From: Bryum argenteum
Lineage: Eukaryota; Streptophyta; Bryopsida; Bryales; Bryaceae
Assembly: GCA_037043015.1 (NCBI GenBank)
Contig: CM073324.1
Coordinates: 26,986,097 to 27,050,096, forward strand
Reading direction: 5' to 3'
Length of the DNA: 64,000 nucleotides
The position numbers and the translations under genes are program-made. Positions 1,310-46,254 of the stretch are shown here, piece after piece. Under the pieces are notes generated by a model. The model worked only from the letters and a program-made list of their open reading frames with translations. It was not told the origin of the DNA and ran no database searches. The first letter of the stretch is position 1; the number at the start of each line of letters is the position of its first letter.

Positions 1310-1318
1310 AGTCACTAA

Positions 1319-4268: not shown

Positions 4269-4269
4269 T

Positions 4270-15406: not shown

Positions 15407-15409
15407 TAA

Positions 15410-22073: not shown

Positions 22074-22202
22074 AGTTTCATGTGCATACCGATGCCTCGA
22101 ACATCGCAATCGGGGTGATGCTCGCCCGTAACCCAACAGGGGCGTGTGACCACCGATTTCTTATGCCAAAGAGACTTTTGAATTCTCACGAGAAAAATTA
22201 CA

Positions 22203-23855: not shown

Positions 23856-26569
23856 GAAGGGACCAGTTCAGGTGACCAAGCGGGCCAGGAAGGGACCAGT
23901 TTGAGTGACCGGGACAGTACCAGCACCAGACAGAGACATGCACCAGGAACACAGGACCAGGACATCAGATGCACCAAGGACCAGGACAGACGTCAAGACC
24001 ATCAGGACAGGACCAGACAAGACCAACAAGACAAGACCAGACAGGACCAGGACAGACGTCAAGACCATCAAGACAGGACCATGACAGAACAAATGAAGAG
24101 GGGCAGGAAGAAATCCCACAGCAGCAGAACAGGTTGAAAGGGGATCAGGAAGTAGACAAAGGGGATGAGGGCGAAATTAGTGGAAAAAATAAAGAAAAAA
24201 GAGGAAATAATCAAAAAGAAAAAAATAATGAAAAAGAGGAAGCAATCAAAAAAGGAGCAGAAGAGAAAGAAAGGAAGCAGCCAGCAGTACTATGTGGAGT
24301 AATGGAGGTCATCCCAGTCCAAGAGCAACACGTGGCAGAGGCTATGTTACAGCTAAGGGGGCGGCCAATAAAGGAAGAGGATGAAGAAAATACATCCGGT
24401 CAACAGATTTCATCCATCATGGATGAAAAACGGCTACTAACCCTAAAACCTGTTTTCAGTTATTGGTGGTGTAGGGTTAACCGAGCCACAAACAAAGTAG
24501 AAGAAAGCTGGAGAAGGGTTCGGGTAGGTCAACAAAAAGGAGAGAATGAGCACCAAGAGCCAAACTCCACGGCTCGCTAGAACGGACTTGGGAGATGGGG
24601 CAGTCGGAGCAACCGCAGGTGGATGAAGTACTGGCAGGGATGATACCCGGCCACAGCAGTTCATCCGGCAGGAAGAAAAGAAGACGACCAGAGGAGGGGG
24701 ACTTACCCTATGGGACCGAAACCCTGAGTCTTTTCGAGAGCAAAGAAATGAAGGTCACAAAGAACCAAGGTTCGAGAGTAAGAGTGATAGAGAGTTTCAT
24801 GAGTAGCAAATGACAAAGACCAACCGGGCGGCAGGGGGCGCTCAATGTTGACGGCAAGAAATGGGGGCGCCTGAAAGAAGAACACAGAGCACCGAGAGGC
24901 GCTCAACAAAGAGGAGGCAAAGAATGGGGCGCTCAAAGAAGAAGAGGCAAAGAATGGGGCGCTCAAAGAGGCCGGCAAAGAAGAAATTGACACCAAGCAA
25001 AAGAGAGAGAAACGAGGGTTTTTAGGGCATCGGGGTTAGCCGAGGGCGGAGTCGCGGACCATAGTCAACACCGACAAAGCAATGGGAGGAGAGAGAGAGA
25101 TACGCAGGAGGGGCAGCCGTAGACAACAACAGCTTGATAGACGCCGGAGGAGCAAAGCAATGGCGAAGGAGCAAGGCAATCAACCGGGCCCGGTGGAGCG
25201 AGACCGTTAGCAGCAGCGGAGGGCGCAAATCGTTAGGGGCAGAAGAGGAGTACTAGGCGCCGCACACGACATTCGATAGCGGCCGCAGATCAAGAGCAGA
25301 AGGAGCGGGGCGATTGAGCAACACGACACCAACCGGGGAGCGAGTCGACACCAACAGGAGAGCAGGACGATCAAGGAGCAAATGGGCGGAGTGTGGTGGA
25401 TGAACAATACATGGCGGAGTCGCACACGCACAGCAGAGAAGGAGACAGAGAGGAACCACAACGGTGGGGGGGGGAGACGACCAGCTAGGGTTTCAAGGCG
25501 CGGGTTTTTGGGCAGTTCGCCATAGCCAGGGCCGCAACAGCATTGAGGGACAGAGTAGAGAGGAGCTTGCAGAGGCAGACCAGACGAGGCCACTGCGACA
25601 GCAGTTTCGGGACTAGGGGCAAGGCAGTTCGAGGGATTGGGAGCAGAATAACAACAAGAATCATGAGGCAAGAAGTCCGACAACCACCACCACCACTGTA
25701 ATGGACCGAAACCAGGGTAATTCGAGAGCTTTTCACTCGGATCGTGGGATCTCAACTCGAGCAGTAAGGGAGGATAGAGGTAGGAGGTGGAGGGATGCAG
25801 ACCAGTTGGCGGGGCTGAACCAGGAAGAGAGACTTGACACGAGGGATAGAGGGGAGAGCTCAGCCTTAACATTCAGAGATTGGGGAGAAGGGAGTCTTTT
25901 AGAGGAAGAAGTGCAGGTAAGGAGAAGAACAATACAACAGAAAAAATTAAAAATGAACACAAATGAGCTAAGAGAGGGAGCAGGTGGGAACAGCAACCAG
26001 GGTGTAATCAGCAGAAGTCTATTCAGGGCAAGAGACCAGCAGTGAAGGGGGATCTTAGAGCATACCTGCAGGGACCAGTGGTAGCGCCACACCAGGAGGA
26101 GATGGACCTAGAGCAAATGGAGGGGCAGGAACCTCCACAGCCGACACAAAGCAGGACCCGGACCAGATACAGAAAGCGAGGACCGCGACCAAAGACCAGA
26201 GAGAGCAGAGACCGCGACCAAAGACTGGAGAGAGTGGGACCAAAGACCAAAGACTGGGAGCAGACCCAGGCCAAGATCGTGAGCAGCAGAGACTGCGACT
26301 GGGAACACCACCAGGAGGAAGTTCACCAACCCCATGGCCAGACTTCCTAGGAGGACCAGGGTTGAGAGGAAGGTAGACAGAGCTATTCAGCTCACCTTTC
26401 TTCCCTTGAAGCATTGGCAGGGATGGAGAGACCTCCCGATAGTAGTGACTCGGCGAGGGTAGGTCTGGAGTCTTTTTATGAGTACACCTGGCCTGCACCA
26501 CGCACAGAGCTGGTAGCAGACCTCGTGGAGGGGTTCTAGTACACCAAGGGGGAGAAGATTGAGTATTCC
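23856..26569 (+). other. Post-integrase region of copy 2
   Basis: Matches 11910-14630 of copy 1. The K/E-rich frame at 23969-24580 is open; other frames are short and low-complexity. Regions 24530-25480 and 25610-26460 differ from copy 1 by many indels centred on CAG/CTG. Confidence 0.5.
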
Positions 26570-27217
26570 ATGCCGATTCGGGCCACAGTAAGGGGTATTC
26601 CAGTGGAGATTACAGCATGGACCATGCAGCAGGCTCAGCACCAGCTGGTAGTACTCCATGAGGACCAGGACAGGGAGAGGCAGACTTGGGCGGATCAGGG
26701 GGTCCAGGCAGAGGCAGTGAGGGCCCAGAGATTGGAGTTGGAGGCCAGGACCAGTGCCAGGTTCAGGGACTTTGATCGGCTGGCCAAGGAGAACCAGCAG
26801 CTCAGGCAGAGGGTGGAGTTGGCTGAGGCCAGTTCTACCCGGGCTTCTAGGGGGGTGACCAGACATATGCTGTCTACCACCAAGAAGCAGGTACTGGACC
26901 AGATTCAGGCCTACTCAGAGGACCAGGCCAGGTACTCCAGGTATTTGATGAGGTTTGCTGAGGCTTACCTATCTTTCGTGTACTGGTCTGAGGATGACGA
27001 GGATGAGGGGGACCAGGAGATGTCTGATGGGGGGCAGTTTGCGGATGATGGAGGGGCTTCCAGCAGTGGCCTGGGAACCACTTCTGGTATTGGATCTCAG
27101 TCAGGTGATGGACCAAAGAGTACCGCTCTGCCGCACCACCAAAGATACTGCGACCGCAGGCAACACTGTGGGGACCAAAGATCGGCAGCAGGAGGGGCGA
27201 CACCAGTTAGTAGCTAG
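26570..27217 (+). CDS. Extra 3' ORF of copy 2, coiled-coil protein
   Basis: 215-codon open frame from MPIRATVRGIPVEI. It has a helical region with heptad-like pattern (residues about 20-115, for example ELEARTSARFRDFDRLAKEN), an FVYWSEDDEDEGDQE acidic segment, then a G/S-rich tail. The longer frame starts upstream near 26330 and is cut by a TAG at 26537-26539 shared with copy 1. It lies between integrase and the polypurine tract. I do not recognise the family. Possible roles are a structural or nucleic-acid-associated accessory protein; no evidence favours either. Confidence 0.55.
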   Translation: MPIRATVRGIPVEITAWTMQQAQHQLVVLHEDQDRERQTWADQGVQAEAVRAQRLELEARTSARFRDFDRLAKENQQLRQRVELAEASSTRASRGVTRHMLSTTKKQVLDQIQAYSEDQARYSRYLMRFAEAYLSFVYWSEDDEDEGDQEMSDGGQFADDGGASSSGLGTTSGIGSQSGDGPKSTALPHHQRYCDRRQHCGDQRSAAGGATPVSS

Positions 27218-27343
27218 ATAGTAGACGTATGACAGATTACTGGTAGGACCAGTAGGACTTGTTTTTTTAATTTTTTGATACCTTAGTTTTTTCGGTTAAC
27301 CCCATAAAACTTAAAACCGAGCATCTGAGGGCAGATGCAGACT

Positions 27344-27353
27344 AAAAGGGGGA
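27344..27353 (+). other. Polypurine tract before LTR C
   Basis: aaaaggggga directly precedes taa and the LTR start, as in copy 1. Confidence 0.7.
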
Positions 27354-27356
27354 TAA

Positions 27357-28202
27357 TGTTAACTGGGGATTTAAGGTAGTAGAATAGAGGGGCAAGAAAT
27401 CAGAGGGGAGCAAAAGAAACTGCAATTGCGGGGGGACAATAAACTGTTAACTTACTGTCCTGCCCTGTAGTAACTCTGTTGGATGAAAACTGCATGTTTT
27501 GGATGAAAACTTCCAGATGGATGAAAACTTCCAGATGGATGAAAACTTCCAGATGGATGAAAACTGTCAGATGGACGAAATCTGGTGGTTGGATGAAGTC
27601 TGGTGGTCGGATGAAAACTGTTGGCAGTTAGGGTTTTGGGGGTGGCGGCTAGGGTTTTGGATGGGGTTGTGGGAGAGGGGGTTGCAAAGCGGAGACGGGC
27701 TCTCTCTCACTCTCTCTCTCTCAGTTCAGAACTCGGAGATGGGAGTTTTGTGTGTAGGATATGTTGTAGGACTCAGAGGGAGAGATTTCATAGAGCGATT
27801 TTCGGGACTGGGGGTCCAGATAGTGATATCAGTAGGGAGCAGAATCATGTACGGATTTACAGTGAGTAAAGAGAAGGAATTGATTACATTGGGTGTAATT
27901 GTCTGAAATTGCAGTATGAGTGCTTGAGGGACCAGATTAGTGGATTCACCTGGTGGGTCCAGTAGATCCGGTGTTTAAATGAGTGAGTATTGTAGATCAG
28001 ACCAAGGGGAGTAGAAAAATGTATCAGATCTAGAAAAATACCATCAGGATTTGAGTAGATCTAAGTTGGCAGTTTCAGATCTAGGACCCGGATTTTGGGC
28101 GATTTCAAGGGCGCTTCGAGGCGTCTGAAATTTTCGCAGGATTTCAGAGAGCTTTAGGACAGTATTCATTTTTGAACGAGTAAGAAAAAGATTCCTTTCA
28201 CA
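27357..28202 (+). repeat. LTR C (3' LTR of copy 2), 846 bp
   Basis: Begins TGTTAACTGG and ends TTTCACA at 28202, after which similarity to LTR A and B stops and unrelated flanking DNA starts. Three copies of the 18-bp unit are at about 27498-27560, as in LTR B. Confidence 0.85.
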
Positions 28203-28317
28203 TGTGCTCATGAAGTCATACGAGGAAGTCGGCAATGAAATTCGAAACTCATGCAACGACGATGGGGGGCGGCCACATACCAGTTCGTGATTCACGTTAG
28301 CAGCACCTCCAACTTCG
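28203..28317. other. 3' flank of the tandem retroelement
   Basis: Unique-looking sequence directly after LTR C. No target duplication matching the left flank at 3448-3452 was found. Confidence 0.5.
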
Positions 28318-28615
28318 AAACCCAGCAAGAAGCGAAAAGCAAGCGCCACGGCCAAACCCAGCAGCAACCGCAGAACCCCGACGGCAAGCGCGTCGGCCAA
28401 ACCTCAGCAGTAACCAGAGAACCCCGACCAGCGAGCGCCACGGCCAAACCCAACAACAATCGCAGAAGTCTGCAAAGCCAGCGACACGGCCAAACCCCTG
28501 CAGCAATCGCAGAACCCCGCAAAGCAAGTGACATGACGAAACCCCTGCAGCAATCGCAGAAACCCGCAAAGCAAGCGACACGGTGAAACCCCTCAAGCAA
28601 TCGCAGAAATCCGAC
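28318..28615. repeat. GC-rich ~45-bp minisatellite
   Basis: About six degenerate units of the type gcgacacggccaaacccc / tgcagcaatcgcagaa / ccccgcaaa. The unit length near 45 keeps short open frames on both strands, rich in Q/P/K on the plus strand and A/L on the minus strand. I do not regard these as genes. Confidence 0.7.
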
Positions 28616-28696
28616 CAAGAAGCGCAGCTCGAACTTCAGGACAAAACCCTAGAACCGGGAGGGAGAGAGAAAATGCGCCGCCAAAACTCGTTGAGT

Positions 28697-28817
28697 CAGG
28701 TGATACCCGCGCCCACGCCCAGGAGATACCCGCGCACAGGCCCAGTTGATACCCGTCGCCCACGCCCAGGTGATACCCTCGCCCACGCCCGCATGATACC
28801 CGTCGCCCACGCCCGCC
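28697..28817. repeat. ~24-bp minisatellite
   Basis: Five units of gtgatacccgtcgcccacgc-type sequence, 22-25 bp each, ending at 28817. It abuts the previous array by about 80 bp and marks a sharp change from GC-rich to AT-rich DNA. Confidence 0.75.
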
Positions 28818-31800
28818 TGTGACGGTATCTTACTATTCTAGTAAGAGATTGAATGGTTGAAACCTTAAAATTAATGAAATTCAAATAACATCTTATAACA
28901 AATTCCTATGAAAGTGAACAAAAGTTAAATCCCAAGTGTGTACTTGATAAAAATATATCATATGCAAAACTTTGAGAAGTTGTCACAAATATAAATAGAA
29001 AATCTTCATTGAAAATTTAGTACATTAGGGCTCATGTGCACTCTAAAAAACGTAATTTGAAATCATAAAGATATAATCTAAGACTTGTCGAAAGAAGGGG
29101 GCTACTTGAGAGTTGTCTGAACTTAATAATAATAATAAAACTTTGTGCCCATAAAGGGTCGGTGTGAATAAAGTGTCCATTTGTAATACTAATGACTAGA
29201 TGCCCAACGGACAAGGGGATATTGGAACAATACTACTCTCTTCTTGCATCCTCGTACGGATTCGCTACCCTAAATCACTATCAGTGACTTTTTTATCTTA
29301 GAAAGTGATTTGTGGATTTGTGCCTATATACGAATCAGTTGTATAAAATAATTTATAACTTTCAAAATCTCACGTTTTACAAATTTTGTAATGTTAATAC
29401 ATATATGAAATTAACAAAATAAAGTGGCAACTAAGGAAGACGGGTACCCGTTCTCTTACCAATCGACCCAATATCGTAGCCATAATTAGCCCTGCTAAAA
29501 TCTAGAAGTAGAATTTGGCGTCGCAAATTTTACCACGGATAGATTCTATGTTTCGCACACACACACACCACATTGCAACCCAAATACCATAATTCAGTTG
29601 TTCCAATGAGGTGCCCAAAGTAGTAAAAATCCAAATAGGTTGGCCTTCAGGACTTAATGCAAAATATCTTTCTACCAAATTTGGCATACATAGTCAACTT
29701 TGTGAAAAGGAAGAGTTGATGATTGTTATCCTAAATACTTTGTTCATCTCTTTGTCCATGTAGATAACTAAATTTGAGCATGCACATTCAAAGTTTTGTA
29801 AAATCATTTGGCCTTTTGAACATTCATCGACTTATTTGTCATAAAAAGGTATAAAAACAACAATATGGTAAAACAAGTATCACGTTCATTGTCTTTGAGT
29901 TGGACTAATAATGGATTGTGAGTACGTACTCTATAATTCTTCTCTATTTTTACAAAATTATTTTCTAAAATTACAAACTATCAATTATTGAATTTTACAA
30001 GAAAGAAAATGTAAAATCACATTAAACATTGTAGCTTGTTTATGTAGAAATTGAATGTTGCCTTTATAAGATTGAAAAGTTTCGACATGGATTAGTTGGG
30101 AATTTGAGTAGTGATCCATAATGAAGATATTATGTAAGTAAAATCCTGTAAACACAAAGTAAATCAAAATAAAATTAAAAGCAAGCAATGAAGAACATAA
30201 AAGATAAGTAAAGAATACAATCTTAAAGTGCATGAGAGAAGCTTATGGAGAAAAAACAAGGTAGCGCAAAATTTACAAGACGAGATAAGAAAACACAACG
30301 CTATTAATAGCAAGTGTTACTATGAATGTTTGACAAATCCGAGATGCCTCATGTAAGCACCTACTTTGTGATCTTTAGAGCTCATGCCTCAAATGTGAAT
30401 GATGAAATCAAAATAAAAATTTTGATTTTTTTCATTCATCTTACCCCCGTTCCGTGTGAACATCCAATTACATAAGTTTGTACTTTTGACTTAAATAATA
30501 AATCTCTTCTTCCTCCCTCTAATGTGTTCATGTCTTTTTGAAGGCATCAAAGGTATGTATTTGGATCTAGAGGTTTTGACCTTTAGATGGAAAGTTAACA
30601 ACCTTAATAGACTTGTTGTAAACCATGTGAATAATAATTTGAGAAATGAGGTTCTACAGAGTGTTACATCATAATGTATTAGTACACAAATCAAATGACA
30701 AAATTCCATGACTTTTACTTTGGGGTAATAATAATACTAATGAGGCAATTGCATTAAAAAAAAATTTCCGAAATGCCTAATGGATTCTTGTTCACATTAA
30801 TCTTAGCAGCACCTTTTTACCATAAGTATTTTTAAAAAATCAAATCTTGATTAAAAAGAATAACCTTACCAATGGTGAATATCGACAAAAAGTTTACAAA
30901 GGGAAAGTATTCAAAGGCTAGACCTTTTGCACTCAAACCTATGCCTTACCTTCAAATCAACTTTGATTGAGTCAAGGTTTGTAACATAAAAACTAGATTT
31001 TATTTGCTATTCATTACAGGAACTGCAGTTCAAAATCATCAAGTTTTCACTTTTTCATTGTGGAAACATCATTGCAAATCTAACACAAAAAGTAGTTGCA
31101 TCAAGTAATTTCCAACTAAAAAGTTGTTAGATTAACCCACAATGACATGTGTTTAAAAACATATCATGATAATGAATTTCACAATTGTAATTAAAGTTGC
31201 AATCGGAATTGTAAAATATGCCCACATATTTCAAGAAATAGAAACTACTGTTTCCCTCATTAAACTTCATGCCATAAATTTTAAAAATCTTGAATTAGAA
31301 TAAGAATTTTATTAGAAAAAAGTAGACTTGGTTTGGAATCCAATCCAATCAAGTTTGCCAAAATTAAAGCTAGATGAAGACAATATGCCTCTTCAAAGTT
31401 TTGGGTTCTCATCCAATATTATCAACTTAATATTTGGTGTGCTTAGATGTTAACTTTCAAAATTATTAGTTGGATTAGACTCCATTTAAAATTTTGTACT
31501 TATGAAGAATAACTTAACTTTCTCTTCAATGTCGTTAAGAGAGAACATTCATTTTGGTGAAAGGGTCTATTTTTCTTTATTTTTTGCAAGTTCTGGGGTT
31601 CCACCATTGCAAGGCAATTATTTAGTTAAGAGAGTTGTTTTATTTTTTTCATTCATACTTTTAATTTATTTCAACCCTTTTTTCGAGCATGCCCACCTCT
31701 TATTTTATTACTTTGTAGTCGGGACTTCATATTTCGATGGGATTTTTAAATTTTTTAAATTTTTTTTTCAAACTATGTTTATTGACTACCAAATACTAGA

Positions 31801-33072
31801 TTCACCGTTGGGATTTTGAAAACTTCATGGTTATGTGTGAATAATATGGAGTCAAAAGCGTGCCTTTGTATGCATGTTTTTCTTACCTCCTTCAACTCAA
31901 TTTCACATTTACTACACTTAAGATTTTATAAAAATTCCTAATTTTTTTGAGCTTATTCGAAACTCAAGTAGTAACATGGATCCGCAGAGCCTCGTCCAAA
32001 GAAATAAATAAATAAATAAATAAATAAATGATTTTGACCCTCTAAACTCTAAACCCTAAACCCTCCAAAATTTGAATATTTCCATGTTGCAGTGAAAAAG
32101 GGTGGTTTTGAAGAGTTTCTGCAGTCTTGGGGGCTTTCGACTTTACGGGTTAACAAATAAATCTATTTTAGATTCTTTTGAAAGAATTGTACAGGGAATT
32201 CATGTGATTAGAAGAGCCCGGAAACAAAAAAAACAAACACCTTTATGACCAAATCTTGCAAAATTTGGAAGTGAAGAAACTCAATAAGTAATTTGAGTTC
32301 CTAACCCCCTAACCATCCCAACATTCATACTTTTAATTTATTTAGGGTACATTCACCTCCAAAGAAATGAAATTCTGCGGGAAAAAAAACGGTAATAATT
32401 TATTTATTTTTTATATGGTGTGCACCTGGGGTTGAAACCAAACAGTTCAATAAATAGATTATTAGATCCAAGTTTGACTTTGAAATTTATACCATAGACA
32501 CCATGCTCATGTCAAATCATAGCTTAAAATTCTAAACTTAGACCCTTCATCTCAGCTGCCAAAAATAGGCAACAGCCATTGGCTATCATGGATATGTATG
32601 GGGTTAAAAGATGAAATAGTTTTATGTTGTTTTGGGCATCCTAGATGAAATACTGAAAATCAATACTTAAAAATCATAGGCAAAAATATTACTTTTAATC
32701 TCTTCAAAATGGCTACCCAAAATTGCAAATACCCATTTGGGTATTAAGAATAGTGAGGGCTTAATGGTTCCCATTGATCTTCATGAGATCAATAATATCA
32801 TAAAACGCTCCAACCTACAAAGATTTTGATAATAAAGTAAAAAGGGCAGGTCAATATTTGTTGTTAAGCTTTGCAAAGACATCTAAAATTAAATAGTCCA
32901 ACATGTAAAGAGCTCAATAAATAAAAAATACAAAGAGATTTCCAAGATTCAAACATAAACATTTTATAAAAAATACTAAAGTGAATAATTTTCCTCAAAT
33001 AATTCAATTTTTCATCTCGATTTTACCACTAGTAAAGTGAATGAAGCAATTTAAGTTAAATAAACTTGTCAC
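28818..33072. other. AT-rich stretch without recognisable genes
   Basis: About 4.2 kb of AT-rich DNA. Open frames are short and compositionally biased. Simple repeats: CA run at 29556-29570 and AAAT run at 32002-32029. A telomere-like CTAAACCCTAAACCCT lies at about 32049-32064. Confidence 0.6.
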
Positions 33073-33357
33073 CTTATCTCTAGCCTTACTATTACCCAAC
33101 TCTAGTTCACTAACCTTATCCCTAGCCTTACTATTACCCAACTCCAGTTCACTAAACTTATCTCTAGCCTTACTATTACCCAACTCTAGTTCACTAACCT
33201 TATCCCTAGCCTTACTATTACCCAACTCCAGTTCACTAAACTTATCTCTAGCCTTACTATTACCCAACTCTAGTTCACTAACCTTATCCCTAGCCTTACT
33301 ATTACCCAACTCCAGTTCACTAAACTTATCTCTAGCCTTACTATTACCCAACTTCAG
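33073..33357. repeat. 42-bp tandem repeat in alternating A/B variants (84-bp dimer)
   Basis: Units start at 33073, 33115, 33157, 33199, 33241, 33283 and 33325 (last one partial). Odd units read cttatctctagcc...tctag, even units cttatccctagcc...tccag, alternating perfectly. The 42-bp length is a multiple of three, so both strands show a long open frame (LALLLPNSSSL on plus, SKARDKFSELELGN on minus); these are probably by-products. Confidence 0.9.
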
Positions 33358-33679
33358 ATACCCATACCTTATCCCTATATTCACTCTAAGTGTTTGCATG
33401 CCTCCCTACCCTACCATATAATGAGGATTAGCCATACTTCTTCTCTCATTTTTCTCTGCAACAGCGATGAGGGGCGGCGTGCCAGGCTGTTTGCAGGTCA
33501 CGACTTGACATGTGGAGGTTGTGTAATTCTGAAGTTAGTGATTGAGCAGTACTCGAGAATTAAGGAACAAATGGCAATAGATTCCACGAATGGCTAAATC
33601 ATGCAAGCTTTTATGAGTGTTAACCCTGTTTTGGAGGGTAATTATGTTCGATTGTAACAAGGTGAGTGTTCTGCTGCAG

Positions 33680-33883
33680 GTTGGGTTGAATAGTGTGCTT
33701 GGGGGCGCAGTGTTCGTGACATCTGTGGTGGCCGGTTCAGTGAGCCTGGCGGTGCAGCCGTCGTCGCCAGGGGCGCCGCGGCCGCGGCTGGATTGCGTCT
33801 GTTTTCTACAGGATGTGGGTTTCTTCCTGTGCTCTTTGGCGGTGCTTTCCTTCATCATCTATGAAGGAAAGATCAACCTCTGA
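33680..33883 (+). pseudogene. Cation/calcium exchanger (CCX-like) exon fragment
   Basis: After a good 3' splice site (ctgctgcag at 33679) the frame reads VGLNSVLGGAVFVTSVVAGSVSLAV, then CVCFLQDVGFFLCSLAVLSFIIYEGKINL, ending in TGA at 33881-33883. In plant CCX and animal NCLX exchangers (Na+/Ca2+ exchanger superfamily) this segment follows the first alpha repeat: two membrane helices with an F-RDV-FF motif between them, and the next residue is usually tryptophan, so the TGA may be a mutated TGG. Neither the GNGAPD motif upstream nor the second alpha repeat is found nearby. It looks like a remnant or captured exon, not a working transporter. Confidence 0.55.
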
Positions 33884-34339
33884 ATTTAGTGCATTCACAT
33901 TCGTTGACTTGTCTACTTTCTGGCTTTCTGCAGCTGTCATCCATCACTTTTCAAATTTTGCAAAGCTTGAAAACATGATTGTAAAGGTCTACCGGTTCGT
34001 GTCTTGATCGAGCAAAAGCATGGTTGAGTAGGGTACGATGCGACTTCTCCTTCCTCGCTTTGGATATCTGGCAGCTAGGATCTCTTTATCTCAATTCCTC
34101 TTCTTCCCCTTCTAATTCCAGATCTTAAACCTTCCGCTGTCAATCATGCCAATCATGCCCTTGAGTTCAACGATATTTCCTATGCCCTTGAGTTCAACGA
34201 ACAAAAGTCCCAAGATGGAATTGAACATCCCAAGTTGGAATTGAACATCCCAAGTTTGCAAGCATTCGCTCAAAAACAAAAGGAGTAAGAGACTGTAAGC
34301 GCGGCTACCGCACAGAAGGCTGCTGCCGATTTCTTAAAG

Positions 34340-35184
34340 GTAATTCCTTGACTATTACCTTTAACTTCTATGTCAACAATTGTGTTTTACTTATACTTAT
34401 ACTTATACTTTTAGTAAAATATAAAATGTTATTGAGAACTCGGTTGGTGGCTTATCTTCCCAAAAGGTTGATAAGTTGGATTCTTGATATTCTTTGACAA
34501 AATTATAAAATATTATTTTTAATTTATATAAGAACTCACTTGGTGAATGGTCTTCTCGAAAGGGTTGATTTTTCGGATAGTTGATGTTCTATTTAATTAT
34601 ATTTTTGGTGAAATATAAAATGTTATTGAGAACTCGGTTGGTGACTTATCTTCCCAAAAGGTTGATAAGTTGGATTCTTGATGTTCTTTGATAAAATTAT
34701 AAAATATTATTTTTAATTTATTTAAGAACTCACTTGGTGAATGGTCTTCTCGAAAGGGTTGATTTTTCGGATAGTTGATGTTCTATTTAATTATATTTTT
34801 AGTAAAATGTAAAATGTTATTGAGAACTCGGTTGATGGCTTATCTTCCCAAAAAGGTTGATAATTTGGATTCTTGATGTTCTTTGACAAAATTATAAAAT
34901 ATTATTTGAACATTTTATGTGAGAATTCATTTGGTGGATTGTCTTTAAAAAATGTTGACAGTTCGGATTTTTAATGTTCTTTTTAATGTTCAAATATTTA
35001 ATAATTATTTAATTAATGTATACAATAGATATTATTTTTATCTAAAAAAGTATTAATAAAATCTCTCTTCTAAGGGGAAAAAATTAAAATTTATTGTTAA
35101 ATTAATTATATAATTCGGATAATAGTAAAAAAGTTTAAAATTCTGTTCTTGATTCTAATTGGTTTTTTTATTTATTTAATTTAG
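34340..35184 (+). other. Probable 5' leader intron of the oxygenase gene
   Basis: A donor (aaag/gtaattcc at 34340) and a strong acceptor (tttatttaatttag ending 35184) flank 845 bp. The acceptor lies one base before the ATG. If spliced, the upstream sequence is frame-broken relative to the ATG, so the preceding exon (ending 34339) would be untranslated leader. Confidence 0.5.
34405..35005. repeat. 194-bp tandem repeat inside the leader intron
   Basis: Units begin attgagaactcgg at 34431, 34625 and 34819, an exact 194-bp spacing. Each unit consists of two diverged halves of about 97 bp (gagaactcggttggtg... and agaactcacttggtga...), so the array grew by an older dimer being amplified. The third unit is the most diverged. 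Confidence 0.9.
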
Positions 35185-35185
35185 A

Positions 35186-36658
35186 ATGGCGAGCAAGATA
35201 AGAGGAAAGAGACCGTCTAAACAGCGTCGTGAGAATATTACTTTACCGAGTGGTGAACATTTGATATTAGGAGAAAATGAAGATTTCTTCTGTTCTGCAT
35301 GTAGCAAAACAGTTGCTCAACAAGGACTTGATAATCATTTCAAGGGAAGAATTCACAAGAACATGGAGAAGTTGGAGTTGTTTTATCCTTTTCTCTTGAA
35401 ACAAGGTCTGAGTTGGATGGAAGGGAGAAAGAGTTTCAAGTGCGCCAAGGAGTGCTGCCAGAGGGAGAATTTGCCGGCACATTACGAACAGCTCGAACTT
35501 CATGTGTTCAAAAAACACTTCTCTACTGTTCAACCTGTTTACCCTGCTCCATCGCCTTCAGCATACAGAGGTTCTCAATTACCAAAGGTTATTTATGGTA
35601 ACCAAGGAGCAAAGCATACCAAGCAGTTTTGGAAGAACTTCGATTTACATGCAGCAATGGGGAGTTATGAGAAACTTACAGCTCCAACCACTATCCTATC
35701 CAAAGGTACAAATGAGTTTCTTCTTCAGATTGTGAATGGACAATTCAATGAGACTGATCTGCAGGAGATGACCTCTTTGGCATTGTACCTTGAAAAGAAT
35801 GGTAATGCTGTGAGGAAGGATCCAAGGAAAGAAGGAATAAAAGGTGGCACGAGAATGATGTGCCATGGTTTTCGCCATGCCCATGGCTATATAGGAAGGT
35901 AAGTTATATTATTTCAAATAATACTTTTATATTTTTTCTTCAATTTTTGTTCTTGTTTATTTGTTATTTAATGTTTTATAATTATTTTTATATAAATATT
36001 ATTCTTAAGAAATGCTTTTTGCAGATTTAAGCAAGATGACCCTCTGTGTTACCTTCATGCTGATAAGCTAGCTTCTATGCTCTACAACCATTTGAAGTCA
36101 TTATTTCCAACAGTCTTCGAGCAGTCACAGATGATTTGGGCAAAAGAGAATTTACCAGCTGGTGTTGGTAGAGTTGGTGAATCTCCTTACACAACAATAA
36201 GTGTTACGAAGGATTATTCTTGTAACCCTCATACCGACGATGAAGATCTCAACTACGGCTTTTTTATATGGTTGGGAGCTGCTGGTAAGTATTCTTAAAA
36301 CTTTACGATACATTTTTTTGTTTTTTTGTTTTTATTTTTTCTAAGTTTTTAATTGTAGTTATATTTTTTGAATGTAGGTACCGAAGATGATGCTGAAAAT
36401 GAAACGTGGTTTTATTTTCCAGCTCTTGGGTACTATTTTAATCCTGCTATAGGAGATATTCTTCTGTGCAAGAGCAATGATATAGTTCATTGTTCGAAGA
36501 CTACTGGATCCACTAGACAACTGGGTATTGCGTTGTTTCAGAGGTCTACATTTTTTCAAGGTTATCATCTATTGCAGCAGAAGCTACGTGACGGTATCAA
36601 TGACCGTTTAACTAGCAGTTGGTTAGCCTCAGAAGTATTTTATGGTGCTTCTTTTTAG
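35186..36658 (+). CDS. Zinc-finger 2OG-Fe(II) oxygenase, TET/JBP-like
   Basis: Coding exons 35186-35898, 36025-36284 and 36378-36658 join to an uninterrupted 417-residue protein; both introns have GT-AG ends and the frame is kept at each junction. The N-terminus is basic, then a C2H2-type finger (C36, C39, H51, H57) and a second Cys/His cluster (C86, C90, C91, H106, H111). The C-terminal half has the oxygenase signature: HTD (H307, D309), a GDILLCKSNDIVH strand with H362, and R371 in TRQLGIALF, i.e. the H-x-D...H...R set binding Fe(II) and 2-oxoglutarate. The hydrophobic strand pattern and a conserved-looking NPAIGD turn resemble the TET/JBP DNA-base oxygenase group known from animals, kinetoplastids, fungi and algae. 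Substrate is not shown; oxidation of methylated or plain pyrimidines in DNA would be expected for that group. The DNA-binding fingers fit. It could also be a different 2OG oxygenase carried by a mobile element. Confidence 0.65.
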
Positions 36659-38350
36659 ATTTTATTTCTTTTTACTTTTCTTTGTGTATAGAGAAATGCA
36701 CAATGTTGAATATTTTGTTTTCTGTATATAAATTTGGATTTGTATTTGGACTGTAAATCTTCAATACATATGTATAATGGTATTGTTTTACATAAAGTAT
36801 TCTTTAATAATCTTGCATTTTATAAATGTACATTTTTTGTTTACTACAATGAAAGTAAATGTTCATATTATATAAATTTTAATATATATTTAACAGTAAA
36901 AATTACAAAGTTCATAGCTTTTCCAAGGATTTCTGAATTCTATTTGAATCAAATTTCAATTAATGATATGTTATTGAAGAAAATGTTTAAAATAATTCTA
37001 CTATATTCAATTTACAGCTCTAGTATGCTCTTAGTCAACATTTATTACTTAAATAATTTTCTATAGAAATTGACTATAATTTAAGTGGCTAGTGTAAATG
37101 AGATGAAATTGTTATAAATGGATACATATTGTACTTAAAGAAGGAAGTGTTGCTCCAACTTCGAACGTTATGAAATAAAAAATGAAATACATTTAACTGT
37201 CAATCTCGGAAAAAATACCTCAAAATTGGGTATGGTACTATGGTTCAGTATCTTACGGTTGGAAGTCTACAAAAAATACATATATTTGTTATGTACCTCC
37301 GAGAGTGTATAGAGACTAAAAGTCGTAGTTTTTAGATTTCAAGCTCCTAAAAATACAAGGAAATATAGATGTTAAATGATAAGGGACATGTTATTTGCTT
37401 AAAACCCTTTTTATACAACCATAGTATTCAAAGTTTGAAGATATCTCTGCTTGTTAAATTTCTGTCGAAGAGGAATAGTGCTCATTGATAAGGGTACGCA
37501 TTATCTTTTCTTAAATTCAAATTTAATGAATAATTTGAACACAATTAAGTGGTTTTTTATACATTTACTTCAAAAGTACCAGATAATTTATTTCAAAAAC
37601 CTATAGTAACACTAAGTATGCGGCTGGATACATGACAGCTGGCTCTAAGGTAACAAGCACCAAATAGACATGAAGAAATGCACGATACGTATAGATATCT
37701 GTATATGGCAAGAAAATAATATCAAACACCCGCCTCTTACCCAGAAGCTGAGGCTGATACTATTTTTTAATTAGTCCATAATTTGTTGGATATTCTCCTT
37801 AAATTGGCTCCTCTACCTTTGTGGAGTAGACATCTTTCTAGATAGAGTATTTATACAAAACTATAAGAATTAACTATAAGCTGTTTGTGTGCAGCTTGAT
37901 ACATGAACTCAATCTTGAGAACCACATTTCGGCAGAACAATGCATGAAAATCATAAGTATTAGGTTCATACCTACAATAAAGAAGATAGGAAGTCTTCTA
38001 CAAAAACATGTTGTTGAGATGAGAATATGACATTTACCCACAGTAACCTTCAAGCTTATGTGGAAGTACATTAACTTTTACATTAATTTTTATTGCACCA
38101 ATCAATATATTATCAGCTTCATCTTCTGCAATGTCATTGCAAAGACTAGCTTTTGAACACTTTTAAAGTTATTTCGAATGTAAGGGTGCCCAACTGCAAG
38201 ATCGGTTTTTGGGAGAACGTTTATTGGCCCCATGTCAATTAACGCGAACGCACATTGTCTTTAATTTTCTTTAACGGTTTAGGGTTTAAAAAATCCGAAT
38301 CTCAGTAGTAACTAGATAAGTATCTCCAATTTCGCATTTTATAACTCTTT
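36659..38350. other. AT-rich stretch without recognisable genes
   Basis: Downstream of the oxygenase gene. The only longer frame (36734-37066) is AT-biased and has no recognisable domain. No clear polyadenylation signal was picked out. Confidence 0.5.
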
Positions 38351-38377
38351 GATAATTAGTGTTAGATACAATAATTT

Positions 38378-38573
38378 GATAATTAGTGTTAGATACAGTA
38401 ATTTACATAAACATGTTATAAGTTTTTACTGTTGTTCAATAATTTTACCCACTATATTGGCCAAGATGGGGGTCCTTATATAGTATCAGAATCAATGCTC
38501 ATGTTAATTATTATTTTTTTAAGTAAAAACTTATAGCATTTTCAAATCTTATAATAATCTAACACTAATTATC
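38378..38573. mobile_element. MITE, 196 bp, with 17-bp perfect terminal inverted repeats
   Basis: Terminal repeat GATAATTAGTGTTAGAT at 38378-38394 and its reverse complement at 38557-38573. Inner parts also match as an inverted repeat (ataagttttta). A second copy, in opposite orientation, lies at 59690-59872. The left terminal repeat is duplicated at 38351-38367. It codes for nothing and would depend on a transposase elsewhere. Confidence 0.75.
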
Positions 38574-38832
38574 GAATTTAGTGTAGTTTTTTTCCGACTC
38601 ATATTCTAAATAATACCAAAGTATCACATGGGTAATACATAATTACCATGGAAGAATCAAAAAGAATTAACGAAGAAGTTCATGAAGGGGAAAGTAGATG
38701 GATTCTCAGTAAAAAACTTCCCAAACAGTAGTTCTTAATGAGGAGAAGTTACATCATAGTAATTTCATTAATAGAAACGTAAAGTCCAACTTCCAATCAA
38801 AGCGCAGCCGATTTCGAAATTAAGGAGCTGGG

Positions 38833-39258
38833 ATGACGTGGGCCGGCGGCGCATTGGCGGTGGTTGCACTCACTGTCACCACTCTTCCTCATTCTGTCGT
38901 TGTTGAGCATCAACGATGTGGAGCTCGCGAATCGCGTAGGAGCGTTTCTCGTGGTGTGTCCTCCAACTGCACCGTCGGCACCCATTGCCGAACTCATGCT
39001 GTCGACTGCCGACTTCCAGCGAGACTTGGTTCCATGGCGAATCAGCTGAGTGTTTCTCGTTTATGAAGGTCGACTAACTGCACTTGGAGGTCGACAAACT
39101 GGTCGAACCAGCTTTTTCGCTTCTGAGAATGTGTCGCTTCTTGCCGACAATGCTTCTTTTGTTACCTGGAAAGAACTCGCCCTCCTAGATCACAAGCAGA
39201 GTCCGAAACGAGGGAGTTCCCCGAGCGAAGCTCACGTGAACCACTTACAGGTAAATGT
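38833..39258 (+). other. Possible exon, unrecognised, frame-broken
   Basis: A GC-richer island in AT-rich surroundings. One frame from 38864 reads a hydrophobic start (SPLFLILSLLSI), then ELMLSTADFQRDLVPWRIS, a TGA at 39047-39049, then VFLVYEGRLTALGG on to HVNHLQ, where a possible splice donor (cttacag/gtaaatg) follows. A second frame from ATG 38833 begins with a signal-peptide-like MTWAGGALAVVALTV. No family recognised. It may be a decayed gene start. Confidence 0.25.
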
Positions 39259-40044
39259 TGTACTCAGTTTGTTTGCTTCCATCTATGATCGAGCTTTGCT
39301 ATCATGGGTTATGTGCGCTTTTTAGTTGGTTGGTATCATCAGCGTGGGTTTTTCTGTTTATCGGCCTGTTGTCTGCAATGCATTTGTAGCGACGGTTTGA
39401 GTCCCTAAACTTAGTTACTCATCATTATGCGCAAAGATTACTACATTGCTGAGTCGAGTGTCGGGTTGTTCATGTGCAGCTATTCTTTTTCGTATTGCAG
39501 GATCAAAGGAAGCTGAGTGGTGTACGGACACCTTGCTACGCCTTAGAAGGCTGTCGTAAGCATCACATCGTGTACATAAGGTTACACCTTGTATTCATGA
39601 GGTTATGAAGGTCCACTAACTGCACGAAGAAAGAGATCTTATCATGGTGGTTGTGGTTTCCAGGACACAAAAAGGAGTGAATGCCAAGGAGCTTTTCCAC
39701 TTGTATATTGTTTTGTGGATTCGAGACAAGCGTGTGCATCTGTTGGATCTTTGCAAGTTTGAAAAGGTAATGAACTACTCCCATTGAAAGCTCGTACATT
39801 TGTTTTATGATTGTCCTTCGATGATGATTACTAAAAGGTTCATTGGATTGAGTAGTTGTTCTCCTTGTCACCGAGGAAAAGCTGTTTTCGTGTCTGAAAA
39901 TGGATCTGTGGTTGCTTGTAGTGGTTCCGCTGATGAGCCGGTCCGTATCGGTGTGTGTAGAAAGCCTGGCGATTCTGGGCAACGTATTCTTTTATGTTCT
40001 TTTACATGTGTGAAGACCTAATTGCAACGGTGAGTGCTTTCTCT
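39259..40044. other. No clear gene; short duplicated segment
   Basis: The phrase atgaaggtcgactaactgcac near 39063 recurs as atgaaggtccactaactgcac near 39604, about 540 bp apart. Open frames here show no recognisable domain. Confidence 0.4.
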
Positions 40045-40188
40045 TCAAGCGTACATTGTTGGTCTTTCACGAGCTCGTATTTCTTTTGATGTAAATATTT
40101 TTATACAGTTTATTCTAGTTATATAATTATGGTATAAAAAATTAAATTCGACGTCGTATAGTACAGCTTGTGCAAAATTCGTATACTT

Positions 40189-42631
40189 CCAGTGGGCAAT
40201 TGCCCACTGGGAAGGGCGTTTAGAAAAAATCGACTGACCGGGCAGCACTTGTATGTGATGCAAATGACTAGTCCAGAATTAGTTCGGGCAGTTTTAGATA
40301 TAATTCATCAGGTTGTCAAGAGTCTGTGAAGGAAATAAGAAACAAATTCTCTTGAGTCGGAATAGATTTCATCGTCGGTAGCTCCAAGTAAAAACAACCA
40401 CTAGCCATAAATATTTGATTGTCCAATAAACGAATGTTCATTGTTTGTTGTTTCTTAAGTGGCAGTGGACAATTGCCCATGGCATTTGTCTCCCACGGAC
40501 ATTAACTAGAGTCTTCATTTGTAAGGAGGCGTAAGAGCTGACCTCAGACGGTACATCTCGAATACTCAAGAGAGTTGTTTGAATCCTACGCTTAAGTGAG
40601 AAACTTGTTTCTAATATCTGAGCACAACTCACATGTTAAACACTAGGTAATTGATTAATTGAACAGGGTTGACAAGTTAAAAGCAGTGAGGAGTTTGCAG
40701 CATGGAGTTATGATGGAGATTAGTCTCGTAGGCATAGCGTTTCTTAGTATCATGGTTATTGGTCGGCTTTGAGTCGGGAGGGAGCCATTAGCAATTGACT
40801 TACGGGAAGGGCGTTTATGAAGATTAAATTGATTGGGTCGCACTAGTGTGTGGTGCGAGAGAATTCACGAAGTTGATGCAAATCGCCTTGTCGTAACTCG
40901 CAGATTATGAGTTTGTCAAATGTCGGAAGTATCTAGGAGACAACTACTCTAGAGTCGGAAGAGCTTCCGCCTTTAGTTTCTTGAAGTACATGACTAGACG
41001 AATACTCTAGAGACGGAAGTCGGAACAGCTTCCGCCTTCAGTTTCTTCAAATACAGGACTAGTACACTTTTTGAGATATAATCATTATTATAGGGATTTA
41101 AATGAGTATAATCTTTGAAGTGCCAGTGGGCAATTGCCCACTGGATTTTTCTCCTGGAGCAGTCTGTGAAAATGTTAAGTGTGTAATAGCTGATCTTTGA
41201 TGTCAGTTGCCAAATACTCATGAGGCGTTTGAATACTACGTTTGTTTTTAGTGAAACTTGTTCTGCAGTTTTAAGCACAGCGCTGCAGTGGGCATATTAG
41301 ATTGTAGGCAATTGATAAATTGGACAAGGCTGATTAGTTAGGAGCACTGATGAAATCGCAACATCAAATTACGACTACATAGGACAGAATTGAAGTAATT
41401 ATTGTAGTTAAGAATTGAAGTAATTATTCTAGTTAAGAATTAGTGTAGAGAAAAATGATTGAATAGACTTTACTTGGGATGTATCAGTAATGTTATTCTT
41501 TAATCTTGTAGTATAGTACTTAGGAAAAACATTGATACTGTAATAATCAAGCCTTTGTAGGTTAACATCGGGCTATGTGAAGATATTGGAGAGCGGATTA
41601 GAAGTGAGACCTGCTGCATCCTCACCATTTCCAAAGGTGCGTTGTCTGCTTTAACTCTTGATAATAGGTATGCTTCTACTACTAACCTCTGAGTTATAAT
41701 TAATCTTGTACAAAAATAGGAGTAAAAATGAGAACGAGTGACTAGAGCAATCACTGATGTTGAATTACAGAAGTCTACTGGGATTGGGTAAAAATGTCGA
41801 GTATGGAAGAAGTAAAAGTAGGATGCCAGTACCGAGCTTACGACAAGTGGGCAATTGCCCACTGGATCCGTAACAAGTGACAGTAATTCATCTTTGGGGA
41901 CTACACCTAAATTATGTGAAGAAAATTGTATTGATGCATGTAGAGGTGTTACATGTGGCCCCTTTTGAAAATGCCAGTATGGTTGTTCAAAATGTATAGT
42001 GTAGAGAATGGTATAGGATGCAGTAATGAAAAGCGGAGTAAAGTTCCAGTAGGCAGTTGCCTACTAGTAAACTACCCATGTATGCAAATCCAATTTTGTG
42101 CATACTTATTCTTCTAAATTCATTATCGGGAAGGATACTCGGGCACTGAATAGTAAGTGTACTCATAAAAGCTTGCCAGGTTCTGTACGACGGGAGCAGT
42201 GGAGGAATCACGAGCGGTTTACGACCAACCCCTACTGCCTTCCCAGATCTTTTTATATGCAGAGGTGCGATGACAAACTTTGAGCCTAACAGTAGAATGC
42301 GTGTTATCAGCACTTTGAGTTTTGAAGTAATTTACTTGAGAAATCATGATTATCATTATTTTATTATTACATTATCGAGTACTAAGAATAGTGTCATTGG
42401 TAAGCATAACAGAGACATTTGGCAATTGCCCACTGCATTTGTGACTTAACTCGTCCATGTAATGCACACTTTGAGACATGGTGAAAGTAAATCATGAAGG
42501 AAACGATGTTGATGTATAGAACGCCGTTAGAAGTGGCACATTCTAATAATGTCGAAATTGTAGAACATGTATACTATAAGAATCGTTGAATCTACAATCA
42601 CATAGAAGTTCTAAGGACAGTTGCCCGTTGG
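40189..42631. repeat. 22-bp palindrome cluster, right set, upstream of the DUF7869-like gene
   Basis: Copies at 40189-40210 (perfect), 40462-40483, 41123-41144 (perfect), 41844-41865 and 42046-42067, with decayed relatives near 42420 and 42610. Surrounding blocks at 40190-40263 and 40690-40860 match the left edge of the window (2460-2530 and 2250-2420) on the opposite strand. Confidence 0.8.
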
Positions 42632-42981
42632 AAGGAATACCCATGTATACCAAACCAACTGTGAAAATAGCGGTCATGCATTCGATCTCTAAATTCGTTA
42701 ACGTACGGGCCTGTCGAATAAATGCTTGCTGGAAGCATGCGTCAGAAGATGGCGGTTGTTGAAGGCGGTTGTTGAAGAATGTGCAGAGAATGTGGGTGTG
42801 GAGCATAAACTGTACAAAATCAGTCAGGCAATTATGGAGAGTGATGCATCTGCAAGCGACATTGTGAGATTGTAGTAAAAGATTATGACGACTTTCAATG
42901 TTAATGTATACCCATATTTGTTTAAATGATGATGTATCCAACATTTGGATTGGGATCTCTGAAATCTACTAGTGGTATTGA

Positions 42982-45900
42982 TATAAATTTGGAATTGAAA
43001 ATGATAAGAATGTGCCTAGGATAATTAGGAATAATAAACTAAAGCCGCATTGTTATAACGGTACCCTTACAGAAATTATTTCGACTGAAACGCAGGGAAA
43101 ACAGTCAGATTCAGATGATGCTAATGCCCTGTATCACATCGGCGACGAAGAGAGGCCGATTCCTATTTGCATCGGGATCGGTAGAGATGATTGGTGTAAA
43201 AAAGAAGTAACCCTTATAGACGAGAAGGGAATGGTGGTGGGGTATGCGTTTGTAGAGTTTTCAAAAGAGTGGCAGTCTATAAACGGTCGAACAGAACTCA
43301 GAAAGGAGTATGTGGGAGTTGTCGTATGTGAAGTTGCTGAAATGCAAACAACATTAACACCTCGTACACTTCAGCGGTGGTCTACAAGACGTGTACTTTA
43401 CGAAGGAGTCAGCCTTTACGATCATGAGCGTATATACAACGAAGGTCTAGATGCACGAGCAGCTCGCCTGGGGGATCGTCGAGGAAGTCGGCAGTATTTC
43501 TCTGTTCGTAATACTTCATGTCCTTCCAACAAGAAGCGAAAGGATGTTCTCATTGACAAAAAGTCGATTGTAGATACATTGACGAAGTCTTGCTACAAGC
43601 GAGAATGCATAACGCAGTTTAGCCCAGCTCTTATTGAGACATTACGCTACGAATTGCACCACGTAGACAGCAAGTCAAAAGATAGTATTAAATTGGCGGT
43701 TCATAAAAACTTCCACTATATACCAAACACATCAAAGAAAGTATGTGTTATAGAAGGGAAGGTTATCTGCATGGGTGCATGGCGAATGATCCACGGAGTG
43801 TCCAAGACAGATTTCTATAGGTATCGTGCATATGCGGCGAGTGGGCGTCGTGCACAAAATCATGGATTGTTAGGTAGACGGAAGACTTCGAGAAGCACAG
43901 CTCAAGTAGTGCAGACAATGTCAATGATATTGACAAATACAGCTGAGTCGATGCCACACAAGATACGGACTAAAACATCAGGGTTAATGAAAGGTCAGAA
44001 GGTGGTTCAAAGAATTCTTCCGACTGGTACAAAGTGGAAGAATATACTACACGACATTAATAAGGTATGTTTCCATAAGTATCATCATTTTCCGAGAATA
44101 ATGAAGTTGCTAGAAAAACAAGGGTTATGTGAGGTTGCGTATGAAAAAAAGAAAAAGAGAGTGGATTATGTAGGATGAATTTAAACTTTCCGATAATTGA
44201 TTCTATTATAAAATCGTTTGGGTATATTGGGAACATGAGATATAGCACTGAATTAGATGATGTAAGTCGTGGTCAATTGGTAGCTTTATCATCGCAGATT
44301 TCTCCATGTGGACGAAAATGGTACGTTCGAATATGAGACATTGATGGATTACAATTCTAAAACAATGGGGACTGTGTTGCAGATACAAAAAGAATGTGGT
44401 CATAAACCCATATCGCAGTCCAGTTGTAGTAAGATTCGGAAAGAACACTTTTCGGAGTACCAAATTAAGCGACGAGGTGATAATTTTGCGCGGTGTGGGA
44501 GGTGTGACGAACTAACTGCATTGCGTAATGTCCACGCTCATGGTTCCCCTGGGTACAAACATGCGAACCAACTTCTCACATTTCACCTTCGGGAACAAGA
44601 AGCATCGCGTGCACACTACTATTTTAGTCGAGCTTTATCATGCTATCGCCCTGAACAAGTGTTGTGTATTATGCATGACAAAGTGGACCATTCAAAAACA
44701 GCTTCTCCATGTTTTGCGGCAAAGAACAAAGCTGTGGATGGACTTATGAAGCTTCAGATTTCAGTGACGGGAATGTTGGCGCACGGACACGGAGACAAGA
44801 AATACGCTCACTATGCCTTGGACTTGTATCCAGCAGATAGCAATCAAACAATTGGGTCTATTGCGAAACTACTCCGCAATCTCGAAAACACAACCAGAAT
44901 CTTTATTTTTGGGTGCAGGTACCACCGAGTTATACGAAGCAATACTCGGAGGTTCAGAGCAATGTGTTAAATCCATATTGAAAAAACCTTTCACACCTGC
45001 AACTTCGATCCGGTCGTTACCTCCCATCTTACACGTACAGCTTGACAATTGTTGGAAAGACAACAAAAGTCGACATATCAAATGCTTTCAATGGTCACTA
45101 CTGGTTGGCAAAGGTATTTTTGAGGAAATTCAAGTATCGTTTTTATTGGTTGGACATACTCATGACGATGTTGATGCATCATTTGGACGGTGGAGCATGA
45201 AACTACGGGAGAATGATTATCCAACAATTCCCCTCCTGATGAAATCGTACATGGATTTAGATGACGAACCGTTTGTACCTGCCTCATCGAAGAAGTTCCA
45301 GATTTTAAATCCTTCATTGATGGATATATAAGCGATGACGAACTCATCGGACATTCCAAGGGGCGACAATTTCGGTTTTACAGGGATGGTAGTGGATGGC
45401 CTCTGATGCAATAGAAGCTGCGATGTACTGATGAGAAATGGTGCCCTGCCGAAGGTATCAAGTTATGGAAAGCAGACCATGAAGGGAAGCCCAAGTTGCC
45501 GCCGGGCACCCCACGTGCAGTGTTACCTCGTGGTATGAAGGGGCAAGACGACATTGTGAAAGGCATTAAAGGCTTCATACAACATTGGAAAACAGTAGGT
45601 GATGCAGACAAATCCGGAGAGTATACACGAAAATTTGCTCACGTTGTGGAGTACTGGAGTAGAGTGAATGAAGCATTGAAAGAACCAGAAATGGAAGCGG
45701 TGGATGTACTTTGCATGGGATTTTGGCCACGAACTAGACAATCATTTGAGTTACAAACATTATACAACGCAAATGGTGAGCTGCGTGACGAATTTGCGGA
45801 GGACGATATCTATATCGGACCAAGAAGCCTGAAACCAAAACCATCATTTCGGGTAGCCCGAGACTGTCGGGCTGGATATTTGTTGCTTGTTTGCGCAGCT

Positions 45901-46254
45901 GTAGACAGTGATGCACCTATATGGCTAGGAGAAGCTCGGTCAGACCCAATACTTACATTCGGTGATGTGAATGAGAGGATGATAAAAGTGCAGTGGTACA
46001 AGCCTTGCAAACGGCGAGGGAAAGAGTCATGTCCTTATGACAATTGGGACACTGCGGTAAATTTCAAATGGGAGATTGATGAGACATACGAGGTGCAAAT
46101 GACTAGTGTCATTTCTATATTAACAGCGTGGATGCCGAAACGAGCAGAAGGATCAACAAGTGTGACCGTTCCAAAGCGTCACATTCTTCACGCTTTAGCT
46201 AGAATAGCTCTTAGCATCAGAGCGTCCCCAAAGGCCCAAATGCTCCCGAAGTAG
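42982..46254 (+). pseudogene. DUF7869-like gene, copy A, decayed
   Basis: Frames 43012-44178, 44308-44970, 44813-45331 and 45496-46254 line up as one protein of about 1050 residues. Conserved blocks in order: PIPICIGIGRDDW, SSQISPCGRKWYVRI, a Cys-rich ARCGRCDEL, IMHDKVDHSKTASPC, GMLAHGHGDKKYAHYALD, LHVQLDNCWKDNKSR, FLLVGHTHDDVDASFGRW and LLMKSYMDLD. The QLDNCW and VGHTHDDVD blocks are the hallmarks I associate with DUF7869 proteins and look like an RNase H-fold, DDE-like core; that role is inference. Breaks: frameshifts near 44180-44320, 44890 and 45290, and TAG at about 45412 in place of a tyrosine codon (MQ-KL). No ATG precedes the first block in frame, so an upstream exon is likely. The arrangement in a palindrome-flanked unit suggests a mobile element gene. 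Confidence 0.6.

Follow-up and report, generated by a model that had tools for sequence, protein, structure and literature searches.

A gene coding for a TET/JBP-like oxygenase preceded by C2H2-type zinc fingers is carried by a giant transposon with terminal inverted repeats (TIRs) in a genome that is most likely that of a moss, and not of a flowering plant. The analyzed stretch of 64 kb, hereafter the window, corresponds to C4:26986097-27050096 in an assembly of 258.8 Mb made by 25 contigs. Paired TIRs enclose the window copy of the gene and four further ones, and copies with matching flanks reside at many places in the genome. On balance, we favor the view that the gene is cargo of the giant moss transposon, and that its product, a zinc-finger homologue of TET/JBP enzymes resembling the algal protein CMD1, counters silencing.

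The TET-like gene

The gene had been described as a 417-codon frame split into three exons at 35186-36658. The frame is present and free of stops, with H307, D309, H362 and R371 as originally placed. Introns of the window copy measure 126 and 93 nt, and both start with GT and end with AG. Coding features in the window are:

35186..35898, plus strand, exon 1 of the TET-like gene (zinc fingers and N-terminal part); the relatives P0001 and P0004 share its splice end
35291..35356, plus strand, C2H2-type finger 1 (C36, C39, H51, H57); of 11 other copies covering the site, 4 have C36 substituted
35441..35518, plus strand, C2H2-like finger 2 (C86, C90, H106, H111); found also in the paralogues L017 and L028
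36025..36284, plus strand, exon 2
36378..36658, plus strand, exon 3, including the stop codon

The GT/AG/GT/AG series of splice dinucleotides is found in 11 of 13 other aligned copies. The same exon 2/3 junction is crossed by the annotation of a protein of the moss Ceratodon purpureus (P0002, 78% identity), encoded in a 112-Mb contig. Remaining protein relatives found are exon-sized; among them, P0001 and P0004 correspond to exon 1 only, and end at the splice junction of the window gene.

The two Cys/His clusters noticed earlier upstream of the oxygenase domain are both there, and read C36-x2-C39-x11-H51-x5-H57 and C86-x3-C90...H106-x4-H111. Their assignment as fingers rests on spacing and conservation, because Pfam gives nothing above cut-offs (E 0.047 for zf-C2H2_13, matched in one of the family members, and E 0.1 for zf-C2H2_jaz). 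Such fingers may bind DNA. Two AlphaFold models of the protein (pLDDT 41.9 and 37.9) were unusable.

A giant transposon with terminal inverted repeats

The gene is embedded in an element of 55,306 bp that starts before the window, its left tip being 7,847 bp away from position 1. Features of the element in the window are:

1..47459, no strand, window part of the TIR transposon C4:26978250-27033555, delimited by pairs of the tip pattern and by collinearity with an element in contig C11 that lacks the TET-like gene
3453..28203, no strand, LTR-retrotransposon-like tandem insertion in the element, found by self-comparison and assigned to its class by eye from the frames
34403..34987, plus strand, 194-bp tandem array immediately upstream of the gene, differing in copy number between elements
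42982..46254, plus strand, frame-broken remains of a DUF7869 gene region, candidate transposase (DUF7869 matches at 44284-45331)
47414..47459, plus strand, right TIR, about 46 bp, matching the left tip in the 6 elements, out of 17, that were compared side by side
47460..47463, plus strand, right target-site duplication TATG, one base different from the left flank TATC

Similarity between copies ends sharply on the right at position 47459. The 20-base tip occurs 68 times in the genome, 36 in forward and 32 in reverse orientation, when up to one mismatch is allowed, and the reversed control sequence does not occur. Neighboring tips within 60 kb point inward in 18 instances and outward in one, versus a mean of 5.7 and a maximum of 11 in 1000 rounds of strand shuffling. 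The 4-bp flanks are identical in 15 of the 17 elements examined at their ends, two of the identical duplications (TTTT and AAAA) being simple and weak; flanks are one base apart in the window element (TATC/TATG) and in the element at C5:15.7 (CAAC/GAAC). Complete pairs of tips enclose the TET-like gene in 5 of 14 close copies, that in the window included, and in these five elements the 4-bp duplications are identical in four and one base off in that of the window. No tip pairs were found, at up to one mismatch, around the other nine close copies.

The TET-less element C11:2949829-2973166 and that of the window are collinear on either side of the stretch carrying the gene, at window positions 8-2532, 28218-28816, 31362-31738 and 41588-47465. 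Position 31362 had been considered as left end of the element, and was discarded as nine TET-less copies share sequence further left. The LTR-retrotransposon-like insertion (24,751 bp) has two bodies along with three terminal copies, the similarity being 92% over 13 kb. To the right of the TET-like gene, the region 37755-38350 resembles, in inverted orientation, the sequence next to the left end of the elements, and in three loci (L013, L014, L022) the TET copy ends in a TIR-like tip just past that stretch, with the same flank following. The TET module may once have been placed beside a terminus.

Outside the element, the window hosts a second LTR-flanked insertion (50498-57333; terminal copies at 50498-50988 and 55575-56012), alongside which a second DUF7869 frame (56473-57333, E 8.5e-44) is encoded by the minus strand. 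A diverged repeat array with TAAACCCTAAA-like stretches spans positions 60086-63551. Scans of the 64-kb window for tRNAs and Rfam families returned nothing.

The DUF7869 region, located toward the right end, is broken in the window element, and the C11 element features an open frame of 582 codons at the equivalent place. At least 151 DUF7869 matches were scored in the genome out of 1809 first-look candidates, copies within these elements not being included among the matches listed, and none was found in 14 control genomes. Place and abundance make the DUF7869 protein a candidate transposase. It could not be identified as a known one, since no match was obtained with solved transposases, and the name DUF7869 was found in none of the papers searched; it may represent a little-described transposase group. 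Many of the genomic DUF7869 copies have long open frames.

Copies of the gene, decay and selection

At least 134 protein matches to the gene product were obtained genome-wide (174 candidates, 100 scored), which correspond to at least 58 loci once matches less than 5 kb apart are merged. An alignment spanning the whole gene, or the larger part of it, was possible for 13 other copies, with a DNA identity of 88-98%; two of them lack the first fifth. Flanks resemble those in the window as well, as in loci L010 (97.6% over 5,673 bp), L011 (96.9% over 6,709 bp) and L020 (97.0% over 6,059 bp). The gene had been proposed as a different route of DNA demethylation or base marking; such a route in the host is not supported, the gene being cargo of a transposon which has TIRs and target duplications and is repeated at so many loci.

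A host gene, either domesticated or an ancestral plant DNA demethylase lying by chance in repeat-rich DNA, was rejected as the main reading on account of the TIR element and the multiple copies, and we regard it as very improbable. Some paralogues do look intact, with no TIR element shown around them, as that at C9:4618624-4620065 (59% identical, stop-free), but the window copy sits between paired TIRs, has many close decaying relatives and carries private changes in a ratio that speaks against a host gene (8 non-synonymous to 3 synonymous). The C9 paralogue, stop-free in all three exons, is in its own right a candidate domesticated copy. Six further loci (C3:19069367, C8:7014074, C4:168337, C1:4029215, C6:15152888, C5:7608552) are about 34% identical to the TET protein, have similar open frames, and are probably members of a second multiplied TET-like family.

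Of the 13 other copies, L009 alone has a fully open frame, and stops, frameshifts or missing parts affect the remaining 12. The unbroken frame in the window had been taken as a sign of selection, and as unique among the long genes of the stretch. Neither statement could be maintained. L009 is equally open, and the LTR-retrotransposon-like repeat features stop-to-stop frames of 516, 522 and 557 codons. Changes private to the window copy (the 8 non-synonymous and 3 synonymous above, plus 1 intronic) are close to a neutral ratio; selection on this copy is not supported, and was rejected. In pairwise comparisons, dN/dS of the window copy ranges from 0.49 to 0.86 versus nine copies with dS below 0.08, and measures 0.42 versus L015 (dS 0.21), 0.96 versus the strongly decayed L019, and 0.25 and 0.36 versus the partial copies L018 and L024, respectively. 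Such values fit an element lineage that would be under modest constraint, with single copies drifting.

Family of the oxygenase domain

The Pfam family best matched by the protein is Tet_JBP (PF12851; residues 252-380, E 2.5e-6, 27.3 bits, under the curated cut-off of 34.9), followed by the Tet-like family PF20515 (E 0.0041). The first family alignment had six members, four of which match Tet_JBP at E values up to 1. Neither AlkB nor prolyl-hydroxylase families are among the matches, and the TET/JBP assignment first proposed is supported. The NCBIfam search gave nothing useful. An unnamed phage protein family of the PHROGs collection, phrog_24024, matches the oxygenase core (residues 255-363, E 4.1e-5).

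When a profile of nine family sequences was compared with the PDB, CMD1 (E 1.4e-7) was the sole oxygenase among the 20 sequences retrieved up to E 10; TET2, NgTET1, CcTET and JBP were absent from these. A six-sequence profile reached CMD1 at E 0.033 only, and the window protein alone, searched up to E 10, found neither CMD1 nor any other oxygenase. The diverged paralogue L084, used alone, matches CMD1 with E 3.5e-4. PDB matches to a lysine methyltransferase cover residues 147-230 approximately, outside the oxygenase core. Judging from these profile matches, the oxygenase domain is probably a member of the TET/JBP group, and its nearest solved protein is algal CMD1. CMD1 (5-methylcytosine-modifying enzyme 1; PDB 7CY4-7CY8) is found in Chlamydomonas reinhardtii, and uses vitamin C in place of 2-oxoglutarate (2OG; PMC7854593). 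Enzymes of its type make 5-glyceryl-methylcytosine with ascorbate, independently of 2OG.

The active site and its co-substrate

Residues were compared in two sets of sequences, the 14 close copies (the window copy and the 13 others) and the distant sequences, nine or ten of which cover each position. Of 20 loci, seven (L016, L017, L023, L025-L028) were omitted from the copy alignment, being too diverged or rearranged, and distant readings exclude L023. Sites of interest are:

36230..36238, plus strand, iron motif H307-T-D309; of 14 close copies, all have H307 and 13 have D309
36269..36271, plus strand, W320, counterpart of CMD1 W358; kept in all 14 close copies and all 10 distant sequences read
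36488..36490, plus strand, H362, second iron histidine; in 14 of 14 close copies
36515..36520, plus strand, R371, mostly Gly in copies, and Q372; the latter kept in all 14 close copies and all 9 distant sequences read

The first-pass annotation had seen in H307, D309, H362 and R371 a complete 2OG set. All four residues are in the window copy and the iron ligands are conserved, but position 371 is Gly in all 12 of the other close copies having the codon. Gly predominates also in nine distant sequences (Gly 6, Thr 2, Arg 1, the last in the decayed copy L026). The idea that R371 belongs to a conserved set, serving there as the arginine for 2OG, was consequently rejected, Arg being found in the window copy and in L026 only, and position 372 being Gln. 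An arginine holding the 2OG carboxylate, as R1896 in TET2 and R289 in NgTET1, is thus not a conserved feature of the moss family. The spacing of NgTET1, counted from His279, would presumably put the arginine place at Q372. Whichever spacing is used, that of CcTET or that of NgTET1, R371 in the window is a departure from the family state, which is Gly.

CMD1 residues were numbered by counting from His345 in the profile alignment, which spans about 85 residues. In this alignment S335, T337, D350, W358 and T399 of CMD1 pair with S297, T299, D312, W320 and S364 of the moss protein, respectively; R244, H249 and S414 of CMD1 fall outside the aligned stretch, and their counterparts are not alignable. 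T299 is found in all 14 close copies and in 8 of the 10 distant sequences, D312 in 13 of 14 and 9 of 10, respectively. Position 364 is Ser in 13 of 13 close copies, and Ser or Thr in 9 of 9 distant sequences. S297 is conserved in all but one of the 14 close copies, and Ser is found at this site in just 4 of 10 distant sequences. CMD1 D350 contacts N4 of 5-methylcytosine (5mC), S335, T337, W358 and T399 contact vitamin C, and W358 replaces the 2OG-holding arginine of TET2 and NgTET1; CMD1, itself a member of the TET/JBP group, likewise has no working 2OG arginine and is described as unable to use 2OG (PMC7854593). Cytosine in DNA is a reasonable guess for the substrate of the moss protein, because the Asp contacting cytosine in CMD1 is retained as D312. 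Q372 and W320 together suggest a CMD1-like pocket. As in CMD1, ascorbate is the first candidate for the co-substrate.

The cargo might alternatively be an ordinary 2OG-dependent TET, producing 5hmC and bases oxidised beyond it, in which case the 2OG carboxylate would be held by R371 or by a different basic residue. Tet_JBP is the best matched family, and R371 of the window copy is at +9 from the second iron His, as is Arg385 in CcTET, which requires 2OG (PMC11040006). In addition, position 365 (K365 in the window) has a basic residue, Lys or Arg, in every one of the 14 close copies, and this residue might in principle serve to hold 2OG. We hold this alternative to be possible, but rather unlikely: in the other close copies position 371 is Gly throughout (12 of 12), the sequences read show no variation at Q372, and the place of the Trp which blocks 2OG in CMD1 is taken by W320. 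By spacing, W320, S364 and R371 have Leu339, Val378 and Arg385 as their equivalents in CcTET, which differs from the moss family at these three sites (PMC11040006). As to the chemistry, that based on ascorbate is a tentative choice and the classical one based on 2OG is about as tentative, the remainder being left to an undecided or inactive enzyme.

An inactive oxygenase, or one working on RNA or protein, is improbable. The cargo would then be mainly a zinc-finger binder, involved for instance in regulation of the element. Breakage of 12 of 13 other copies and conservation of the fingers are in line with such a role, and DNA is proposed as substrate from sequence; against it, the iron ligands are retained (H307 and H362 in 14 of 14 close copies, D309 in 13 of 14), as is the Asp contacting cytosine.

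A possible way to escape silencing

In the reading that we prefer, a transposon cargo countering silencing, the fingers would bring the protein to DNA, probably that of the element itself, the oxygenase would act there on 5-methylcytosine, and silencing based on methylation would be weakened, favoring the spread of elements carrying the gene. The 194-bp array located directly upstream of the gene might, as a speculation, be the natural target of the fingers. The anti-silencing proposal follows the case published for fungi, where 11 lineages of DNA transposons carry TET/JBP genes, and are thought to evade silencing by removal of 5mC (Kojima 2025, PMC12730594). A narrower version is possible and put forward tentatively. 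Land plants would have transposon-encoded, vitamin C-dependent enzymes of the CMD1 type, with which giant moss transposons put 5-glyceryl-methylcytosine (5gmC), or another base derived from ascorbate, on their own methylated DNA and escape silencing, the fingers recognizing the adjacent tandem array.

The moss elements are similar to the fungal ones in being complete DNA transposons, flanked by target duplications and ending in TIRs, that host a TET/JBP gene, and in the escape from silencing proposed for both (PMC12730594). They differ in host, in size (23-56 kb), in having 4-bp duplications and a DUF7869 protein, and in the predicted CMD1-like pocket, and could not be placed in any of the 11 fungal lineages named in that source. 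CcTET of Coprinopsis cinerea, a fungal relative of the transposon-encoded TETs (PMC12730594), shares with the moss protein the HxD...H iron site and the assignment to the TET/JBP group. The likeness to CMD1, predicted from aligned residues, extends to the counterparts of T337, D350, W358 and T399, and to the lack of a conserved arginine at the place of the 2OG carboxylate. Unlike CMD1, the moss protein has N-terminal zinc fingers and is encoded in a transposon. According to an abstract by Iyer et al. (2014), genes of the TET/JBP type were reportedly transferred to some Viridiplantae.

Transposon proteins which oppose silencing have a precedent in plants. The anti-silencing protein of Vandal elements is not known to be an oxygenase. 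Vandal (MuDR) elements encode this protein themselves (PMC12730594), and the moss gene would similarly provide a plant transposon with a product countering silencing of its own element; unlike in Vandal, base chemistry is the means proposed for the moss element.

Significance

Descriptions of TET-carrying transposons in plants or mosses, or of giant moss transposons, were not found among the papers listed by a literature search in which text matching of family names was imprecise. Carried by elements that could not be placed in the named fungal lineages, the moss version points to a separate capture of what is predicted to be a cytosine-modifying enzyme, and the capture would have taken place in a lineage that silences transposons by DNA methylation. 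The active-site pattern leads to a concrete prediction, that ascorbate, and not 2-oxoglutarate, is used. According to a 2025 paper (PMC12458080), 5gmC had not been reported from other species, so that moss DNA offers itself directly for a search for this base. If the vitamin C reading is true, 5gmC would occur outside Chlamydomonas, and base hypermodification would be a weapon in the contest between plants and transposons.
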